Below the pieces are notes generated by a model. The model was not told the DNA's origin and ran no database searches. It was given only the letters and a program-made list of their open reading frames with translations. A program made the position numbers and the translations under genes. This document shows, piece by piece, positions 33,949-42,877 of a stretch of 46,532 bases of DNA (positions within the stretch are counted from its first letter, which is position 1; every line of letters starts with the position of its first letter). Source of the DNA: an uncultured Ectothiorhodospiraceae bacterium (lineage in GTDB: Bacteria; Pseudomonadota; Gammaproteobacteria; Nitrococcales; Nitrococcaceae); assembly GCA_913056315.1 (NCBI GenBank), contig CAJXMZ010000004.1, forward strand, positions 1 through 46,532, in the 5' to 3' direction.

Positions 33949-34628
33949 TGACCACGCTACCCGCGGCGCTGCATGCGCAGTTTCGTCGCACGGCAGCAGA
34001 CCTTGAGCGGGTCGATTTGCCGGTTTATCAGGCAGCTAACCAAGACCCACTCGAACCGATCTTTGGACTGGGTCCGGCAACCGCGCCCATTGCGTTTTTT
34101 GGCCGAGATCCCGGTCGCGATGAAGTATTCCACGGTGTGCCATTTATTGGTGCGGGTGGCCGGCAAGTTCGGCGCGTGCTGTTTGCTCGCGAACACAACG
34201 GCGAGCTGGAAACCACCGAACAAGCCCTCAGCGCGGGCAAGGGCCACTTTTGGGCCAATACCGTGCCGTATAAACCGGTTGCGAATAAGGCCTGGTCGAT
34301 GGCGGTTAAACGCCGTTTCCAGCCGCTTGTCGCGCAAGTGCTATGTGATGTTTGGCAACAAAGCGATGTGATTACGCTAGGGCGTGAGGCGTTTTTGTGG
34401 TTTGCCATTGCGCAGCCGCCAGCACTTGCGCAGCAGCTACAGCAGCATTGGCTTAGTCCCGAGCGTTTCCACACCCAAGTCGATCTCGACTATCAAGCGC
34501 CAAGCGGGCAGACTCGCCGCTTGCGCTTGCATCCCCTGCCACACCCCTCACCGCTGAATGCAACGTGGTTTAAACGCTTTCCAGGCTTGCTTGCAGCCCG
34601 ACTTAATCAACTAGAGGCACATCAATGA
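33948..34628 (+). CDS. Uracil-DNA glycosylase superfamily protein (divergent)
   Basis: Motif GRDPGRDEVFHGVPFIGAGG and HPLPHPSPLN resemble UDG motifs 1 and 2. Confidence 0.8.
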   Translation: MTTLPAALHAQFRRTAADLERVDLPVYQAANQDPLEPIFGLGPATAPIAFFGRDPGRDEVFHGVPFIGAGGRQVRRVLFAREHNGELETTEQALSAGKGHFWANTVPYKPVANKAWSMAVKRRFQPLVAQVLCDVWQQSDVITLGREAFLWFAIAQPPALAQQLQQHWLSPERFHTQVDLDYQAPSGQTRRLRLHPLPHPSPLNATWFKRFPGLLAARLNQLEAHQ

Positions 34629-35431
34629 CGAGGCATGATTGGGCTTTGCATACCCATGCGGGGCTAAGTGCGCGGCTAACCAGAGATAGCGTGGGGCTAT
34701 TGCCACTCGGGGCAATTGAGCAACATGGCCCGCATCTGCCCCTGGCAACCGACCAAATAATTGCCGAGGGTTTGGCAAATCATGCGGTTGAACAGTGCAA
34801 AAGCGAGCACTCGATTTGGTTGCTGCCGGCTGTGCCGGTTGGTCAGGGGCTTGAGCATGCGGCTTACGCTGGCACATTAAGCCTAAGTGCCGCGACCTTT
34901 GAGGCAGTGGTCTATGAGCTTGGTGCCAGTGCCGCTCGCGCGGGATTGCGTCGGCTGGTGCTGTTTTCCGGGCACGGGGGTAATAACGCGGCCATGGATA
35001 ATGCGGCGCTGCGTTTGCGTCATGACCATCATATGCTGGTGGTGAAAGCCTGTTATTTCGATTTTCCGATGCCCGCTACGCCAACGCTGCCGGCGCGAGA
35101 GTGGCGCGAAGGCCTGCATGGCGGCGCCTTGGAGACCGCGTTAATGCTGTACTTCAACCCCGAGGCGGTCGAGCTGCAGGCTGCTGAGCACTGGCCATCC
35201 ATGACATCCCACGCGCTGAGTGATTATACGTACTTGGGTGCTGAGCAAAGCGCCGCACGGTTTGCCTGGCTGGCGGGCGATTTAAACCCTGCGGGCGTCG
35301 TGGGGGATGCCCGGCTTGCCAGTGCAGCCATGGGTGAGGCCTTTGCCGGCCATTACGCGGCGATCTTAGCGGATGTTATTGCCGAGGCTGCCCGCTTTCC
35401 GCTCGCCCGCCTCGATACGCCCAAGGCGTAG
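34625..35431 (+). CDS. Creatininase-family amidohydrolase
   Basis: LLPLGAIEQHGPHLPLATDQIIAEGL; FSGHGGNNAAMDNAAL; HGGALETALML metal/active-site motifs. Confidence 0.9.
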   Translation: MTRHDWALHTHAGLSARLTRDSVGLLPLGAIEQHGPHLPLATDQIIAEGLANHAVEQCKSEHSIWLLPAVPVGQGLEHAAYAGTLSLSAATFEAVVYELGASAARAGLRRLVLFSGHGGNNAAMDNAALRLRHDHHMLVVKACYFDFPMPATPTLPAREWREGLHGGALETALMLYFNPEAVELQAAEHWPSMTSHALSDYTYLGAEQSAARFAWLAGDLNPAGVVGDARLASAAMGEAFAGHYAAILADVIAEAARFPLARLDTPKA

Positions 35432-35434
35432 TGA

Positions 35435-36544
35435 CTAGCCGTGAGTTTCTTTGCCCTCGGCGTGTAGAACCTCATCGAGCCAATGGCCAGCGCGTTCATT
35501 TTTAGCGGTTAAATAACGCGCGTTGTGGGCATTGAGCACGCCGTGCACGGCCTCGCGTCCAGCAATTTCAATACCGGCTGATTCAAGCGCGCTGATTTTA
35601 GTGGGATTGTTGGTCATTAACCGAACCCGGGTGATTCCCAACTCATTGAGCATGGCGGCGGCGGTGTGGTACCGGCGTTCATCCTCGCCGAACCCCAATA
35701 ATTGATCGGCATCAACGGTATCAAACCCCGTGTCCTGTAGGCTGTAGGCACGCAGTTTGTTGGCAAGCCCAATCCCCCGGCCTTCTTGGGCTAGGTAGAG
35801 CAATATGCCACCGCCTTCGCTGGCGATGGTTTGTACCGCGCCGCGCAGCTGCTCGCCGCAATCGCAGCGCAGCGATCCAAACAGATCGCCGGTTAGGCAA
35901 GCCGAGTGCATACGCAACGCAGGGGTCTGTGGCCAATGCTCAGGGGCTCCGATTAACAAAGCGACATGCTCTAGCAAACCATCGGCTTCGCGAAATAAAA
36001 CAAATCGTGTGTGTTCTGCGCCGTCGAGCGGCACTTGGGCTTCGCTAATACGCTCAGGCGGCCGTGCTGCGCCGGTTTTGAAGCGTTGCGCATCGGTTTC
36101 ATCAATCGCTAGGATTTCGCCCTGATCGATTTGTTCGCGCAGAAACGCTGATGGGCTGTCGATCGGCACGGCGATGAGCGCAGGTAAGAGTTCGGCTTGG
36201 TGAATGAGCGCAAGCGCAGCGGCCTCAACGCCAGCGGCTTCGCGGCAGTGATCAACCAGGCTTTGGTCTTGACCAGCGGCCATCGCCGCAAGCTGCTCGA
36301 CACCGAATGACGCCGGGGCGGGCACAACAACGCCAGCCGCACCAGGCCAGTCTTTACCAAGCGCTCGGGCTCGATGGGCAGTGAGCAACAACATCGGTGT
36401 TTGCGTTGTCATGCCTTGTAAGTGGGCAAGCCGGGACTGGTTGAGATGCTCTAAAGCCAAAATGACGAGGCCGCCAGCATCACGAGCAATATAAACCGGT
36501 TCGCCGCGCCGAAGATCGATGAGGGCGCGTCGAATGCGCTGCAT
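35435..36544 (-). CDS. GTP cyclohydrolase II (RibA) with degenerate RibB-like N-terminal domain
   Basis: CLTGDLFGSLRCDCGEQL zinc motif, QEGRGIGLANKLRAYSLQDTGFDTVDA, TNNPTK; N-terminal about 170 aa RibB-like but without the acidic active-site motif. Confidence 0.9.
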   Translation of the reverse strand: MQRIRRALIDLRRGEPVYIARDAGGLVILALEHLNQSRLAHLQGMTTQTPMLLLTAHRARALGKDWPGAAGVVVPAPASFGVEQLAAMAAGQDQSLVDHCREAAGVEAAALALIHQAELLPALIAVPIDSPSAFLREQIDQGEILAIDETDAQRFKTGAARPPERISEAQVPLDGAEHTRFVLFREADGLLEHVALLIGAPEHWPQTPALRMHSACLTGDLFGSLRCDCGEQLRGAVQTIASEGGGILLYLAQEGRGIGLANKLRAYSLQDTGFDTVDADQLLGFGEDERRYHTAAAMLNELGITRVRLMTNNPTKISALESAGIEIAGREAVHGVLNAHNARYLTAKNERAGHWLDEVLHAEGKETHG

Positions 36545-36626
36545 AGGGTGCTCCCTTGTTCTGGTCTGTGGGCATAGACCACGGCAGACTGTAACAATTC
36601 CGCAAACAAACTGCAGGGTCTTCATT

Positions 36627-37427
36627 GTGAATTCGGTTGAATCGACATCGTCTGATTGGGCAGAACGTTTGCAGGCCTGCCGGCAAACCCCTTTTTCGCG
36701 CGACAAAGATAAGCGCGGCGACGATTTGCTCGGATTGAATAATAAAGCGGCCAGTGCGGCTTTGCAGGCGCGCTATGGCCCATTGTTTGCGCCGCTGGGG
36801 CAACGCCCACGCGTGATTGCACAGCTTGGTCAAAGCCTCGATGGCCGCATTGCAACGCTCAATGGGCACTCCCACTATGTCACTGGCAGCGCCGATCGGG
36901 CGCACTTGCATCGTTTGCGCGCGCTCAATGAAGCGGTAGTGATCGGGGCCAATACAGTCGTTGCGGATAACCCCCAGCTAACAGTGCGCGCGGTTGAAGG
37001 CCCCAATCCGGTGCGTGTGGTTATTGCCTCCCGGCCTGCGTTGCCAGGGGATCGGCATATCTTTTGTGATCATCAGGCGGCGACCTGGCAAGTCGGGTCA
37101 CGCGGCGATGCCCAACAGTCGGTAGCGCGCTGGCTTGATCCGCCGTCGTTGCAACCGCAGGCGGTGTTGTCTGAACTGGTGAATGCCGGCATTCAGCGCG
37201 TACTGATTGAAGGCGGCGCGCGAACGGTATCGGCTTGGCTGGCGGCCGGTTTAATCGATCATCTTTATCTAACGATTGCGCCAGTGATTATCGGCGCCGG
37301 GCCGACTGGATTGCAGCTGCCAGCGATCGATCATATGGACCAAGCGTTGCGGCCATCAGTTGCCCGATTTGCCTTGGGTGAGGATATGTTATTTCGGCTG
37401 GATTTTACCGACGCATTACCGCAATAA
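36627..37427 (+). CDS. RibD C-terminal (DHFR-like) reductase-domain protein with N-terminal extension, no deaminase domain
   Basis: QLGQSLDGRIATLNGHSHYVTGSADRAHLHRLRALNEAVVIGANTVVADNPQLTVR; VLIEGGARTVSAWLAAGLIDHLYLTIAPVIIG; probable GTG start. Confidence 0.85.
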   Translation: MNSVESTSSDWAERLQACRQTPFSRDKDKRGDDLLGLNNKAASAALQARYGPLFAPLGQRPRVIAQLGQSLDGRIATLNGHSHYVTGSADRAHLHRLRALNEAVVIGANTVVADNPQLTVRAVEGPNPVRVVIASRPALPGDRHIFCDHQAATWQVGSRGDAQQSVARWLDPPSLQPQAVLSELVNAGIQRVLIEGGARTVSAWLAAGLIDHLYLTIAPVIIGAGPTGLQLPAIDHMDQALRPSVARFALGEDMLFRLDFTDALPQ

Positions 37428-38265
37428 CGCCGGGTAAGCTGGCGATTAAACTCAAACTGCCATAAACAATGGCCGCGGCAATGCCTTCTGCCGCCGGTAG
37501 TCCTGCCAACGGCCACAACAGCGCGGCCGTGCCCTCGCGCAAGCCCCAGCCAGCGATGCTCACCGGGATGAGCATAGAAAATAACACCACCGGAATGAGC
37601 GCAAACCACAGCCACGGTGAGCCACTAGGGGTGGTGGCCAGCAAACAACAGGCGTACACACCAACGATGCTCAATGCCACGAGCAATGAGGCCAATAGCT
37701 GCACGGCAAGCGCGTGCGGATGTAAAAATGCTTGCCGCAGCGCGTGCCACCAGCTCGATGCATAACGTTGCAACGCGAAGCCTGCGCCCGCTAGCACAGC
37801 CGCGACTAAGAGGCTGGCGCCGATTAAGGCGCCCGAGCCATGAAGGGGTGTTGGCCATGGCGCGAATAACCACGCACAAACCGCCAAGGCTGCCATGGCA
37901 ATTTGCCCCGATAAGCGCTCGATGACCACCGCTTGAAAAGCCGGCCGGCGTTGACTGATTTGGCTGCCGTGGCGCCATGCGCGCTGAGCATCCCCAACCA
38001 CCCCACCGGGGAGGACTTGGTTAACTAGCGTGGCCAAATAGTATTCGCTCAGTGCGCTGCCACGGGCCAACGTCAGGCCGAGTCGATGCGCGGTATAGCG
38101 CCAGCGCCAGGCTGACAGCGCTATCTGAAACACCGTCAGCAAAAGCGCGATCAGCAACCAGCGCAGATCCAAGCCCCCTAGGCGCGCTAAGACCGCATCG
38201 CCAAACTGGCTCATGACCCCGATCACCAGGGCCATGCTAATGAGCAGTCGGATTAATCGGGGCAC
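37405..38265 (-). CDS. Lysylphosphatidylglycerol synthase TM-region / UPF0104 (AglD-like) membrane protein
   Basis: Multi-TM; LLTVFQIALSAWRWRYTAHRLG, LVNQVLPGGVVGDAQRAWR, IPVSIAGWGLREGTAA. Confidence 0.85.
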   Translation of the reverse strand: MPRLIRLLISMALVIGVMSQFGDAVLARLGGLDLRWLLIALLLTVFQIALSAWRWRYTAHRLGLTLARGSALSEYYLATLVNQVLPGGVVGDAQRAWRHGSQISQRRPAFQAVVIERLSGQIAMAALAVCAWLFAPWPTPLHGSGALIGASLLVAAVLAGAGFALQRYASSWWHALRQAFLHPHALAVQLLASLLVALSIVGVYACCLLATTPSGSPWLWFALIPVVLFSMLIPVSIAGWGLREGTAALLWPLAGLPAAEGIAAAIVYGSLSLIASLPGVIAVMRR

Positions 38266-39068
38266 GGCAGTGCCAGCAGATCGCTGTGGCCAACGGTTAA
38301 TGTCGTTTGATTAAGCCGCTCAATGCGCTGTTGTAGCCAGTGATCTAGGCGTTCGGCTTGGTCTGGCGCGATGGCAAGCGCGGCTTGGTGCCAGCCGGCC
38401 ATGGTTGCGCGCTGTAATGCCGTTTGATCAGCGCTTAGTTGCCAGTCTGCGTGGGATGTCTGCACCGTATAGCCGGCTTTGATAAACGCTTGCTTGGCAT
38501 ACTCGGTGGCGTCTGGGCCCAAGGCCGAACCCATGTCTTTGGGTCCGCGTTGGTGCTGGTTGACCCAATCGCGCACGCACGGGTCATCGGACAGTACGGG
38601 GTCGAAGCTGATTCGACCGTCATAGCTCAGCGCAACCAAAACCGGCGCATGATGGCGCTTTGCATAGTCCACTAAGGCATCGATCCATGCTGGGCTGACC
38701 AAATCGAGAAGCGCCGAGGCGGTAACCAGATCGACGGATTGGGGATAGTGTGCAAAGTCGGCTAAGTCGGTTTGTTGATAACGCACGTCAATCGATAATG
38801 AATTGAGATCGCTCGGGTGGACACTAGCTCTGGCCTGTTCGAGGAGCTGCGCATCGTGATCGAGCAAAACCCAGCGCTGGTTTGCCCTTGGGAGTCGCTG
38901 GGCAAGATAGCGTAAGTTACTGCCGGTGCCGCTGCCGAGGTCTAAGACATGGATGGCGCGATCTACAGGCAAATACTGTGATAACGCGGTTAAGTCAGTT
39001 ATCTCGCGGGCGAGATGGTCGGCGTGTTCACGCAAGCTAAGCCAGTCGGCGGCAAATTGTTCAGCCAT
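38253..39068 (-). CDS. Class I SAM-dependent methyltransferase
   Basis: IHVLDLGSGTGSNLRYLAQRLP; VDLVTASALLDLVS. Confidence 0.85.
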   Translation of the reverse strand: MAEQFAADWLSLREHADHLAREITDLTALSQYLPVDRAIHVLDLGSGTGSNLRYLAQRLPRANQRWVLLDHDAQLLEQARASVHPSDLNSLSIDVRYQQTDLADFAHYPQSVDLVTASALLDLVSPAWIDALVDYAKRHHAPVLVALSYDGRISFDPVLSDDPCVRDWVNQHQRGPKDMGSALGPDATEYAKQAFIKAGYTVQTSHADWQLSADQTALQRATMAGWHQAALAIAPDQAERLDHWLQQRIERLNQTTLTVGHSDLLALPCPD

Positions 39069-40116
39069 GGGTTTGGATTGCCCTTATTGCGTTTTTAAAG
39101 TCGCTTACCTGTTCTGACCAGCTATTTAAGCCGGTGCGCGCGCTAACCGCACTCTGGGTTAATTCGTGCAGCCGATCGGGTTGGGTGATGACGCTGGCAA
39201 GCGCGTCAGCCAGGGCTGCAGCGTCATTGTGTGCGACACAAATTCCCGCCTTGGGTGGCAGGGTATCGGGTAGCGCACCGGCATCGGTTGTGATGACCGG
39301 GATGCCGCGGGCAATCGCCTCAGTCACCACCATGCCATAACCCTCATAGCGTGAAGGCAGCACCAAAACATCGGTCGTGGCCCACAGGCGCTTGAGCGCA
39401 TCATCATCGAGCGCACCGGTGAGGGTAATTTTTTGCTCTAACCTGTGTGCGTTGATTTGCGCTTGGCACGCATTGGCAAAGGCTGGGTTTAAATCATTAG
39501 CCCCGACCAATGAGGCCCGCCATGGCAGTTCTTTTAACGTGTTTAGGCTATCGATGAGGATATCTTGGCCTTTGCGTGGAATGAGGGAGCCCAAGCATAA
39601 AAAATGCAGCATTGATTCATTGCGTGCCGGCCGCAGCGCTAATGGCTCAACCCCGGGCGGGACAACATGCACTGCCTGTTGATACAGCCCCAGTTGATCG
39701 AGTCGTCGGCGAGTAAAATCACTGGTCACAATCACGCCTTGGGCAAGGGTAAGCGCGAGCGCTTCGCTGTCCTTGAGCGCGTCGGCACGGGTCGGGGTTA
39801 GCCCCGTCTCATCAGCCAGCGGGTGGTGAACGAGGGCAATGAAGTGCAATCGCTGTGCATGGGCGGCGAATGCCTTGGGTGATCCGCCGAGCACCAGTCC
39901 ATCGACAAGCACCCACTGTCCGTCATCGAGCCGCGTTAAGCACCCATCGATCGCTTGGCTTGCGCGCTGATCAGGGGTTGGAAATTGGCCGCCTAGGCTA
40001 TGGACGTCAATCTCCAGCCCAGCGGCCTGCAATCCCTCAACCATATGTCGGTCATAACGACTGCCGCCGGTTGGGCGATTGAGCGCGCCAGGCACGATAA
40101 AAGCCAGTGTACTCAC
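39061..40116 (-). CDS. Glycosyltransferase family 4 protein
   Basis: GGSRYDRHMVEGL; FLCLGSLIPRKGQDILIDSL; LPSRYEGYGMVVTEAIARGIPVITTDAGALPD. Confidence 0.92.
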   Translation of the reverse strand: MSTLAFIVPGALNRPTGGSRYDRHMVEGLQAAGLEIDVHSLGGQFPTPDQRASQAIDGCLTRLDDGQWVLVDGLVLGGSPKAFAAHAQRLHFIALVHHPLADETGLTPTRADALKDSEALALTLAQGVIVTSDFTRRRLDQLGLYQQAVHVVPPGVEPLALRPARNESMLHFLCLGSLIPRKGQDILIDSLNTLKELPWRASLVGANDLNPAFANACQAQINAHRLEQKITLTGALDDDALKRLWATTDVLVLPSRYEGYGMVVTEAIARGIPVITTDAGALPDTLPPKAGICVAHNDAAALADALASVITQPDRLHELTQSAVSARTGLNSWSEQVSDFKNAIRAIQTHG

Positions 40117-40517
40117 CCGTGCAGGGATTGCTCGTAGCTGGCCGCCGCGACGTGAGATTCGTTCAGCGTAATGCGCAGCCGATCCAGGGTTTTGGCAGAT
40201 TCACCCAGGTCACCATTGCTAATCGCCGTGGCAAACGCACCAGCGATGTGGCTGGCAAGGTATTCCGTTGTGGTGTTAACGCCCGCAAATTCTGTCATCT
40301 CGTCTAAATTTTTTAAGTTATAGCGGCCTAAAATGCTGCCGAGCACCTCGGTTGCACGCGCAATGTCAATAACAACGCCATCGGCGTCTAGCTGTTCACG
40401 AAAGAACTCCGCATCAACTACGTAAGTTGCGCCATGTAGGGCCTGTGCGGGGCCAAACGTCTCCCCGCGAAAGCTGTGGGCGATCATAAAATGATCTCGA
40501 ACACGAATGCTGTACAT
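40113..40517 (-). CDS. 6-pyruvoyltetrahydropterin synthase / 6-carboxytetrahydropterin synthase-like protein, active site altered
   Basis: MYSIRVRDHFMIAHSFRGETFGPAQALHGATYVVDAEF; NLDEMTEFAGVNTTTEYLASHI; LNESHVAAASY. Confidence 0.82.
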   Translation of the reverse strand: MYSIRVRDHFMIAHSFRGETFGPAQALHGATYVVDAEFFREQLDADGVVIDIARATEVLGSILGRYNLKNLDEMTEFAGVNTTTEYLASHIAGAFATAISNGDLGESAKTLDRLRITLNESHVAAASYEQSLHG

Positions 40518-40525
40518 CAGTCCTC

Positions 40526-41497
40526 CTAGTAGTGGATGCGGTGGCAAAGACCATGACCGGCAACAAGGTCAGGCATGGTTTGAGGCAGATCTTCAAAGGC
40601 GCTCTCAGCATCAATTAATGCCCCCCACTCAGGATGCGCGGCGGTGATCTCTAAGGCTTTTTGCATGCGCCGACGATAGTCCCAGCGCGGGCGCATTGCC
40701 GGAGAGATTTGCCCAACCTGTGAACTGCGTAGGGTTAGCCGGCGAGAATGAAACGCCTCGCCCAGTGCCACGCGTGGTGTTTGATCGCCATACCAACTCA
40801 TTTCGGTCACCTTAGCCTCGTCACCTGCGAGCTCGAGCGCCAGATTAAGGCCAGCTTCGGTTGCGCTGGCGTGGATAACTTGATCGGCATCACCCTGGGC
40901 TTGCGCCGGCGTGGCAAAGCGCAAGCCAAGCGCATTCGCCAGGGCTTCGCGCTCGGGGTTAATGTCGATGAGCTCAACTTGCGTGCCGGGCAGGCTGTGA
41001 CAAAGACTGGCGACTAAACAGCCCACCACGCCGGCGCCAACAACACGAATTTGCTCGCCCGGCCGTGGGCAAACATCCCAACAGGCATTGAGTGCGGTTT
41101 CGGCGTTCGCGGCGAGGACCGCGCGCTCGGCAGGCAGTCCCTCGGGTAATGGGAAGGCGGCTTCTATGGGCAAGTGGTAGCGGTTTTGGTGGGGGTATAA
41201 GGCAAAAATCACTTGGCCTTGCCAGTCAGAGGGCCCCTGTTCAACCACGCCGACATTGGCATAGCCGTATTTTACGGGCGCCGGAAACTCGCCTTCCTGA
41301 AACGGCGCTCGCATGCGTTGGTACTGACTCAAAGGCACGTTGCCTTGCCAAATTAACCGCTCAGTCCCGCGGCTAACACCGCTGTAGAGGGCGCGCACAG
41401 TCAGCTCGTCGGCCTTGGGCGCGGGCATTGTGTGGGCGTAGATGGCGCCTTGCCCAGGGGCAGTAACCCAAAAGGCGCGGCTTATATCCCCGGGCAT
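40526..41497 (-). CDS. MDR-family (zinc-type alcohol dehydrogenase-like, BchC-like) oxidoreductase
   Basis: LYSGVSRGTERLIWQGNVP; KYGYANVGVVEQG; RVVGAGVVGCLVASLCHSLPGTQVELIDINPER. Confidence 0.85.
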   Translation of the reverse strand: MPGDISRAFWVTAPGQGAIYAHTMPAPKADELTVRALYSGVSRGTERLIWQGNVPLSQYQRMRAPFQEGEFPAPVKYGYANVGVVEQGPSDWQGQVIFALYPHQNRYHLPIEAAFPLPEGLPAERAVLAANAETALNACWDVCPRPGEQIRVVGAGVVGCLVASLCHSLPGTQVELIDINPEREALANALGLRFATPAQAQGDADQVIHASATEAGLNLALELAGDEAKVTEMSWYGDQTPRVALGEAFHSRRLTLRSSQVGQISPAMRPRWDYRRRMQKALEITAAHPEWGALIDAESAFEDLPQTMPDLVAGHGLCHRIHY

Positions 41498-41558
41498 AGG
41501 CGCGGCAACTCCTTAATGACTGATAAACTCGACTGCATACGATGACAGGAGAGTAGCA

Positions 41559-42275
41559 TTGGTTCCGGAGCGTTCCGATCGCCGTTGGCTATATATTTTG
41601 CCGGACTTGCTCATTGCCGCCATTTTACTCATGGGTGCGGCCGGTGGCTTGCGTATTGTGTTTGATCTGTCAGCGGCGGTGCCGATTGTGGCCATGCTAG
41701 TGTTGATCGCGTTGGGGACTGTGCTTTGGCGTCACCAGGGCTTTCGGCCATTCACACCGGCCGATCGCGTCACGCTGGGTCGTGCTGTGTTGGTCATGTT
41801 GCTCATTGCACTGCTGCCTGCGGCCAGCGGTCTGCCTGCGCAAAGCGGCATTGTCTTTGCACTGGGGTTAGTCGCGGTATTACTCGATGGAGTGGACGGG
41901 GCAGTTGCTCGACGCTGGCGCTGCGAGACAGTCGAAGGCGCACGCTTTGATATGGAGCTTGATGCGCTGCTGCTGCTTGTGCTTTGTGGCTGGCTCGTGG
42001 TCATGGAGCGTGCTGGCCTGTGGGTATTGGCCATTGGTGGCTGGCGCTATGCCTATGTGCTGGCGGGGTGGTGGTGGCCGGCGCTGCGCATGCCATTGGC
42101 GCCATCGCAGCGTCGACGAGTGATTTGTGCGGTGCAAGGAATGGGTCTTGTGGTCTGCTTAGCCCCCGGCTTGCCCGCAACGCTGACTGCACCGCTTGCC
42201 CTTGGCCTACTGATACTGTTGAGCTACTCATTCATCGTTGATATCGCAGCGGCGTTTCAATCTGCTTCACCCTAA
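41559..42275 (+). CDS. CDP-alcohol phosphatidyltransferase
   Basis: Canonical DGx2ARx8Gx3Dx3D motif (DGAVARRWRCETVEGARFDMELD); TTG start with AGGAG upstream. Confidence 0.88.
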   Translation: MVPERSDRRWLYILPDLLIAAILLMGAAGGLRIVFDLSAAVPIVAMLVLIALGTVLWRHQGFRPFTPADRVTLGRAVLVMLLIALLPAASGLPAQSGIVFALGLVAVLLDGVDGAVARRWRCETVEGARFDMELDALLLLVLCGWLVVMERAGLWVLAIGGWRYAYVLAGWWWPALRMPLAPSQRRRVICAVQGMGLVVCLAPGLPATLTAPLALGLLILLSYSFIVDIAAAFQSASP

Positions 42276-42286
42276 GGAGAATTTCT

Positions 42287-42877
42287 ATGCGCATTCCTCA
42301 TTGGCTACTCGCGTTAGCGCTTGCCTTACCCTACAGCGCGAATGTCTCAGCCGCGCCTGAGCGCTTCGTACTCGATCCAAGTCACGTGAGCATTGGATTT
42401 TTAATCGGCCATGCTCGATTCGCTCAGGTATTGGGATTATTTAGCGATGTCTCGGGTGAGTTTGTCTACGACGCCGATACCCAAACCCTTAACAGCGGCA
42501 AGGTCGAAATTCGTGGCAAAAGCGTGTTTACCGGTCATGAAAAACGCGATGAGCATGTTCGCGGCGATGACTTTTTGGCGACTGATGCGCATCCCATGAT
42601 GACTTTTCAGGCAACCGATTACACGGCGAGCAGCGATCGTGCCGGCGTGCTCGAAGGTGATCTCACCATACGAGGTGTCACCCAACCGATTGCTTTGGAT
42701 GTCACGCTCAACCGACGGGCCGACCACCCTATTGGCGGTGCCGATACACTGGGAGGCTCAGCGCGCGGAGTCATTGAGCGCAGTGCGTTTGACATGAGCT
42801 ATGCGCTTGAGGGCGATTTAGTGAGTGATGCCGTCGAATTACTCATCGAGTTTGAAGCCACGCACGAGCCGCGCTGA
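42287..42877 (+). CDS. YceI-family periplasmic protein
   Basis: Signal peptide; FVLDPSHVSIGFLIGHARFAQVLGLFSDVSGEFVYD; DLTIRGVTQPIALDV. Confidence 0.93.
   Translation: MRIPHWLLALALALPYSANVSAAPERFVLDPSHVSIGFLIGHARFAQVLGLFSDVSGEFVYDADTQTLNSGKVEIRGKSVFTGHEKRDEHVRGDDFLATDAHPMMTFQATDYTASSDRAGVLEGDLTIRGVTQPIALDVTLNRRADHPIGGADTLGGSARGVIERSAFDMSYALEGDLVSDAVELLIEFEATHEPR

Follow-up and report, generated by a model that had tools for sequence, protein, structure and literature searches.

A nine-gene cluster around a PTPS-IV protein as a candidate pathway for a GTP-derived, sugar-decorated pterin-type molecule

Results

We analysed a 46,532-nucleotide stretch of DNA (the window: positions 1 to 46,532 of contig CAJXMZ010000004.1, assembly GCA_913056315.1) from an uncultured Ectothiorhodospiraceae bacterium, and within it a nine-gene cluster that contains a protein of the PTPS-IV subfamily. 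The other genes encode an MDR-fold dehydrogenase (MDR), a GT4-family glycosyltransferase (GT4), a methyltransferase, a flippase-like membrane protein, a RibD_C-only reductase, a GTP cyclohydrolase II (RibA2), a creatininase-family protein and a CDP-alcohol phosphatidyltransferase (CDPOH). The cluster most likely makes a GTP-derived, sugar-decorated molecule outside any described pathway, and these genes are read most economically as a route to a GTP-derived product that bears a methyl group and a sugar. In its specific form, to which we assign a probability of about one half, this reading is a pathway for a GTP-derived 2-amino-4-oxo molecule of the pterin type that is glycosylated, methylated and, in this lineage, passed on to the membrane or periplasm. 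What it draws on, namely the genes present, their linkage and co-occurrence, the fusions and the residues, is observed and is described below. The host draft genome comprises 1.6 Mb and is 86.5% complete; the cluster sits on its contig 4.

Conservation and co-occurrence of the cluster genes

Among 59 relatives searched, close homologues of the PTPS-IV protein were present in 12 of the 13 further genomes of the genus; they also occurred in several genera of its family and order. Almost every relative with a long enough contig carried the nine genes in identical order. When 85,462 species genomes were scanned for the PTPS, at least 588 loci were confirmed. The best 80 of these, ranked by similarity to the window copy, included Streptomyces, Actinomadura, Pseudonocardia, Mycobacterium, Gemmatimonadota, one Acidobacteriota metagenome-assembled genome, and alpha-, beta- and gammaproteobacteria. 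The unit MDR–PTPS–GT4–methyltransferase was kept across Proteobacteria, Actinomycetota, Gemmatimonadota and Acidobacteriota. Since the nine-gene order repeats within genus, family and order, and the core repeats in four phyla, the gene order is far beyond chance. Neighbourhood conservation across Proteobacteria had been proposed as a check by the first-pass annotation of this DNA; the genes proved to be co-conserved well past that phylum. At 69 well-flanked loci (at least 6.5 kb on either side) MDR and GT4 were found in all 69, the methyltransferase in 68 and CDPOH in 64, followed by the flippase-like protein (46), RibA (46), creatininase (44), RibD_C (36) and the periplasmic protein YceI (26).

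Because the best 80 loci are biased towards similarity to the window copy, 399 evenly sampled Pseudomonadota genomes were also examined. PTPS-IV was present in 27 of them; an MDR above threshold occurred in exactly the same 27 and adjoined PTPS-IV in every one. Neighbours were counted at 26 of these loci, the window's own being left out. GT4 was found at 25 loci, the methyltransferase at 24 and RibD_C at 22; less constant were CDPOH (12), a membrane GT2-like protein (12), the flippase-like protein (11), RibA (11), cytochrome b561 (7) and creatininase (6). These counts define a core of MDR, PTPS-IV, GT4, methyltransferase and RibD_C, with a membrane side that comes in at least two versions. Among 298 sampled Actinomycetota genomes, 12 matched. 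Pairwise distances of five components correlated with r between 0.86 and 0.95, the value for CDPOH against GT4 being 0.95. Together these data support the view that the cluster genes form one co-inherited pathway.

Gene layout

Families were assigned to the window genes with Pfam and NCBIfam, and gene starts were refined by comparison with relatives (Table 1). Pfam agreed with the families and places that the first-pass annotation had given for the nine genes, the MDR being recognised by its fold and a weak Pfam score. The tight minus-strand spacing it described, with overlaps or gaps of at most 8 nt, is borne out by the coordinates, and its positions stand apart from small corrections to three starts. 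The PTPS gene starts at ATG 40517, not at TTG 40547, RibA2 starts at ATG 36544, and RibD_C probably starts at GTG 36627, to judge from its relatives. Between the MDR stop and the PTPS start lie 8 nt; PTPS and GT4 overlap by 4 nt, GT4 and methyltransferase by 8 nt, and methyltransferase and flippase-like gene by 13 nt, and the last of these overlaps RibD_C tail to tail by 23 nt. None of the nine genes passed the cut-off of any product-naming equivalog model of NCBIfam; the only NCBIfam model above its cut-off was a RibA subfamily model. No island signature was found, base composition being flat along the cluster. Directly downstream of CDPOH, and beyond the interval covered by the first-pass annotation, lies a YceI gene, which is probably an associated part of the cluster.

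Table 1. Genes of the cluster and the adjoining YceI gene, with positions in the window.
Product	Position	Strand	Assignment
Creatininase-family amidohydrolase	34625..35431	+	Pfam PF02633, E 3e-61
RibA2, GTP cyclohydrolase II	35435..36544	-	PF00925, E 1e-55; best NCBIfam PRK08815
RibD_C-only reductase, deaminase domain absent	36627..37427	+	PF01872, E 6e-40
LPG_synthase_TM/UPF0104 flippase-like membrane protein, without catalytic synthase domain	37405..38265	-	PF03706, E 4e-32
Class I S-adenosylmethionine-dependent methyltransferase	38253..39068	-	PF13649, E 4e-13
GT4-family glycosyltransferase	39061..40116	-	PF00534, E 4e-28
PTPS-IV, tunnelling fold, FGPAQ, HGA replacing HGH	40113..40517	-	PF01242, E 2e-21
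MDR-fold NAD(P) dehydrogenase, SGVSRGTE motif, without catalytic zinc ligands	40526..41497	-	Fold and weak Pfam score
CDP-alcohol phosphatidyltransferase, divergent from MDR	41559..42275	+	PF01066, E 8e-10
YceI-family periplasmic lipocalin-like protein	42287..42877	+	PF04264, E 4e-38

PTPS-IV and the known cofactor pathways

Within COG0720, the PTPS-IV subfamily is defined by FGPAQ in the zinc-loop region (PMC5445326). The window protein carries this signature (GETFGPAQALHGAT), and FGPAQ, E120 and H122 were invariant in 31 diverse PTPS-IV sequences. HGH has become HGA in PTPS-IV, with the loss of one zinc ligand, and the Asp-His of the PTPS catalytic triad is replaced by Asn-Leu or Asn-Tyr, while the pterin-anchoring position invariably holds Glu; these residue roles are those of PTPS and QueD. 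A catalytically normal PTPS or QueD (PTPS-I, -II or -III) would have one of the motifs CxxxHGH, CxxxxxHGH or ExxHGH, three zinc-binding His and the Asp-His pair of the triad; PTPS-IV has none of these motifs and no such pair, and this reading was rejected. The best match in the PDB to the AlphaFold (AF2) model of PTPS-IV (predicted local distance difference test score, pLDDT, 92.6) was 3D7J, the protein SCO6650 of Streptomyces coelicolor (template modelling score, TM, 0.95; 59% identical). SCO6650 is said to be without zinc and without PTPS activity, and able to bind a pterin-like ligand. In three of the weakest actinomycetotal matches (L197, L198 and L199), RibD_C, MDR, PTPS and GT4 all lie on one strand, and the PTPS combines FGPA with an intact HGH zinc motif. 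From these motifs, this sister type is possibly an evolutionary intermediate between QueD-like PTPS and PTPS-IV.

We considered whether PTPS-IV is an enzyme of folate, queuosine, biopterin or F420 synthesis and the cluster a part of that cofactor pathway. An unpublished remark links PTPS-IV to F420 in archaea (PMC5041015), and no other PTPS paralogue was found in the host genus. However, searches for QueC in the genus returned only chance-level fragments of about 20 bits, compared with a true QueC in genome G026 at E 1e-77; two FolB-family genes were present in each of 11 genomes; and FO synthase (CofG/FbiC) gave no match over the cut-off in 11 genomes. A queuosine role, a replacement of FolB by PTPS-IV and an F420 role were rejected on these respective grounds. 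With the three PTPS motifs missing and the triad Asp-His replaced as well, we regard a role in any of these cofactor pathways as very unlikely indeed.

RibA2, creatininase and RibD_C

RibA2 of the window has the residues of a GTP cyclohydrolase II, namely the three zinc-binding Cys (C54, C65 and C67 in E. coli), R128 and Y105, and the canonical residues are kept in Proteobacteria. Its N-terminal part (window 36057-36544, about 163 aa) matched nothing in Pfam, even with E relaxed to 10, and may be a decayed RibB domain. In Streptomyces or Actinomadura, position 105 of the cluster RibA is Met or His, and in Streptomyces clusters it is Met, the change that reportedly lets SCO6655 release the formylamino product. 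The Streptomyces clusters hold this Met105-type RibA together with creatininase, the pairing expected if a formyl intermediate is released. As a general account, a need for a deformylase due to RibA Met105 alone was rejected; it fits Streptomyces only, the window copy having Tyr. The metal-ligand motifs of creatininase (EQHGPHLP..TD, HGGN and HGGALET) are kept in both proteobacterial and actinomycetotal cluster copies. By analogy, the cluster enzyme is a candidate for removing the formyl group from the formylamino-pyrimidine that RibA produces: BrbF of Sinorhizobium, a member of the creatininase family, was shown by experiment to deformylate 2-amino-5-formylamino-6-ribosylamino-4(3H)-pyrimidinone 5'-phosphate (AFRPP), and distant homologues did not complement (PMC9478397).

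The position of Lys151 in B. subtilis RibG is occupied by Gln in the stand-alone cluster RibD_C, by His in five copies and by Ser in the sister type; it is Lys in the host's own RibD and in aligned bacterial RibDs, and Asn in archaeal reductases that act before deamination. Chen and colleagues reportedly ascribed, in 2009, the recognition of the deaminated substrate to RibG Lys151. The best solved relative of the cluster RibD_C is 6P8C, a 2,5-diamino-6-ribosylamino-pyrimidinone 5'-phosphate reductase. A bifunctional riboflavin RibD was rejected for this gene, which has no N-terminal deaminase domain and Gln instead of Lys151. RibA and RibD_C are fused in one Pseudonocardia and one Mycobacterium locus. 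The cluster holds no deaminase, and this, together with the RibD_C residue, favours a product of the pterin type (2-amino) over one of the lumazine or flavin type.

These three genes might instead provide an alternative or back-up entry into riboflavin synthesis, as BrbF does in Sinorhizobium, and merely stand beside an unrelated glycolipid operon. The complete set of canonical residues in RibA2 would suit that explanation, as would the service of a creatininase-family deformylase in riboflavin synthesis in Rhizobiales (PMC9478397) and the many loci without RibA beside the core. Yet RibA2 and RibD_C are not the only riboflavin enzymes of the organism: full-length ribD, ribE, ribH and nusB form one operon elsewhere in the genome, together with the gene for a RibB whose RibA tail is degenerate, and a separate canonical RibA stands alone on a third contig (contig 39), where it probably supplies the GTP cyclohydrolase II for riboflavin. 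The RibB (L037:6286-7425, on contig 2 of the same genome) has a Cys-less tail and is RibBX-like. Of the 26 evenly sampled Pseudomonadota, moreover, 22 have RibD_C along with PTPS and MDR, and in the three divergent actinobacterial copies RibD_C lies on the strand of the core; Lys151 is gone from every stand-alone RibD_C, and the cluster has neither deaminase nor RibE nor RibH. A plain riboflavin role is thus disfavoured by the separate full set and by the RibD_C residue, and the back-up role is quite unlikely. The first-pass annotation had proposed one pathway to a modified pteridine or lumazine-like molecule rather than plain riboflavin; the single pathway stands, and the RibD_C residue, with no deaminase in the cluster, makes the pterin type the favoured product.

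MDR and the membrane side

The AF2 model of MDR (pLDDT 92.4) has the MDR fold, and GxGxxG is conserved; the fold search pointed to no single substrate class. The catalytic signature of CDPOH, D2DG2AR8-9G3D3D, is complete in the window protein and in all 76 of the cluster copies compared. CDPOH and YceI form a single fused protein in two Kiloniellales (L060:6777-8198 and L064:6784-8196); in Derxia lacustris (L059:3681-6599) CDPOH is instead joined to a membrane enzyme of the sulfatase-like kind. The place of the flippase-like gene in the cluster is shared by Gammaproteobacteria, Actinomycetota and Gemmatimonadota. Membrane attachment or export of the product is plausible from these fusions and from linkage, and depends on lineage. 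That part of the first-pass annotation, which had suggested a lipid-linked or exported molecule, is strengthened by the domain fusions and weakened by the differences between lineages.

Further genes recur beside the cluster. Stand-alone sulfatase-like homologues adjoin it repeatedly in Variovorax and Pseudonocardia. The GT2-like membrane protein has about 640 aa and often comes with cytochrome b561; it lies near the cluster in many Alphaproteobacteria-like loci that have no CDPOH (L104:7018-8922, L183-L187, L193-L195). FkbM-family methyltransferase genes lie next to the cluster in one Acidobacteriota, one Gemmatimonadota and one Pseudonocardia (L110:13694-14464, L118:15035-15874, L078:15472-16350).

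Such neighbours raise the question of whether the product is a glycolipid or envelope polyol conjugate, with ribityl or ribitol as its unit, the pyrimidine as leaving group or scaffold, and PTPS-IV non-catalytic or cleaving. GT4, CDPOH, the flippase-like protein, the sulfatase-like neighbours and the membrane GT2-like protein are envelope enzymes, and polyol dehydrogenases are among the MDRs to which the MDR model is similar. But obtaining ribitol from GTP by way of RibA and RibD_C would be wasteful, PTPS-IV retains the invariant pterin-anchoring Glu and the tunnelling fold, and it is the co-occurrence of MDR and PTPS-IV that is perfect while the membrane parts vary. We hold such a conjugate to be quite unlikely.

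The same variation between lineages would suit a free, secreted pterin that acts as a signal or in light protection, with CDPOH, flippase-like protein and YceI as hitchhikers; cyanobacteria contain pterin glycosides, and pterins in the periplasm serve as signals (PMC13259868). The presence of CDPOH in 64 of 69 well-flanked loci, its fusion to YceI and the correlation of its distances with those of GT4 (r 0.95) speak against hitchhiking, and make a free pterin improbable.

Discussion

Our preferred reading, a decorated pterin-type molecule, would proceed as follows; each chemical step, like the lipid linkage, is one that we infer. RibA2 would open GTP to a diaminopyrimidine ribosyl phosphate; in Streptomyces-type clusters RibA would give the formylamino form, from which the creatininase-family enzyme would remove the formyl group. 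The RibD_C reductase would convert the ribosyl into a ribityl chain without prior deamination, and the zinc-less MDR would alter the redox state of that chain. PTPS-IV, having kept its anchoring Glu and lost the catalytic residues, would bind the 2-amino-4-oxo ring system and close or rearrange it to a pterin-like bicycle, which GT4 and the methyltransferase would decorate. CDPOH and the flippase-like protein would link the product or its sugar to a phospholipid and translocate it, and YceI would be the periplasmic carrier. One possibility is that MDR oxidises C2' of the ribityl chain, giving the same 2'-keto compound whose ring closure yields dihydroneopterin when GTP cyclohydrolase I acts; PTPS-IV could then be the cyclase of a pterin route independent of GTP cyclohydrolase I.

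A bolder extension is tentative, and we consider it rather unlikely. The product would be a glycosylated pterin that is anchored to phospholipid, exported to the periplasm or outer leaflet, and has YceI as its carrier; it would serve as a membrane-bound redox or light-absorbing cofactor. Its route, through GTP cyclohydrolase II, RibD_C and a zinc-less tunnelling-fold enzyme, would bypass GTP cyclohydrolase I and be common to at least four bacterial phyla.

Several observations weigh against our preferred reading. The window RibA keeps Tyr105, so that the need for a separate deformylase is not evident, and RibA and creatininase adjoin the core at just 11 and 6 of the 26 evenly sampled loci. Both actinobacterial RibA-RibD_C fusions retain Lys at 151, and no RibD_C was found within 10 kb in 28 Streptomyces/Actinomadura clusters; the reductase step may be borrowed or different in Streptomyces/Actinomadura and in the fusion-bearing Actinobacteria. 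The distance correlations reflect shared species history in part. Many Alphaproteobacteria are without CDPOH and the flippase-like protein and have the membrane GT2-like protein and cytochrome b561 instead; as the membrane genes differ by lineage, lipid linkage may not be universal.

A pathway in hundreds of species from four phyla, small streamlined genomes and many Streptomyces among them, marks a gap in pterin and flavin chemistry. Closing it would show what PTPS-IV does, a protein with a structure solved in 2008 and with no reaction that we found described. It would also explain extra copies of RibA/RibD_C and creatininase that currently bear riboflavin or creatinine annotations. If true, the proposal might also reveal a membrane-linked pterin, a class of which we know no example. 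The gene set is compact enough to be expressed whole, which makes the question directly testable.

Parts of this neighbourhood have been noted before. The subfamilies of COG0720, PTPS-IV included, go back to Phillips and others (2012), as cited in PMC5445326, and to Zallot and others (PMC5041015). The AGeNNT work (PMC5445326) listed 561 PTPS-IV sequences and reported PF00925 and PF01872 among their gene neighbours; these sequences and SCO6650 (3D7J) share the FGPAQ subfamily and both neighbour families with the cluster, but that work named only these two Pfam families and assigned no function. The "undescribed pathway" of the first-pass annotation must be qualified to that extent, an orthologue structure also having been solved, while no description of the full pathway was found. 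The complete nine-gene unit, the MDR co-occurrence, the fusions, the RibD_C residue, the lipid-side genes and the product were not described in the literature searched, which mostly excluded subscription papers and leaves novelty unproven.

With the bacterial riboflavin operon (ribBA, ribD, ribE, ribH) the cluster shares RibA, the RibD reductase domain and the proposed first intermediate; it differs in having no deaminase, RibB, RibE or RibH, and in the replacement of Lys151 of RibD_C. The archaeal ArfA/ArfB/ArfC route and the bacterial BrbF route (PMC9478397) resemble it in opening GTP, using a separate deformylase and then a reductase, the creatininase-family deformylase being a feature of BrbF and the reductase acting on a non-deaminated diaminopyrimidine a feature of archaea. 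Unlike these routes, the cluster has a RibA-type cyclohydrolase rather than GTP cyclohydrolase III, and is joined to PTPS-IV, MDR, GT4, methyltransferase and CDPOH rather than to flavin or F420 genes. Cyanobacterial pterin glycosides such as cyanopterin combine, as proposed here, a pterin-type core with a glycosyltransferase. Their pterins are made via GTP cyclohydrolase I and a normal PTPS, whereas the PTPS of the cluster is without catalytic residues and its entry is through GTP cyclohydrolase II and RibD_C.

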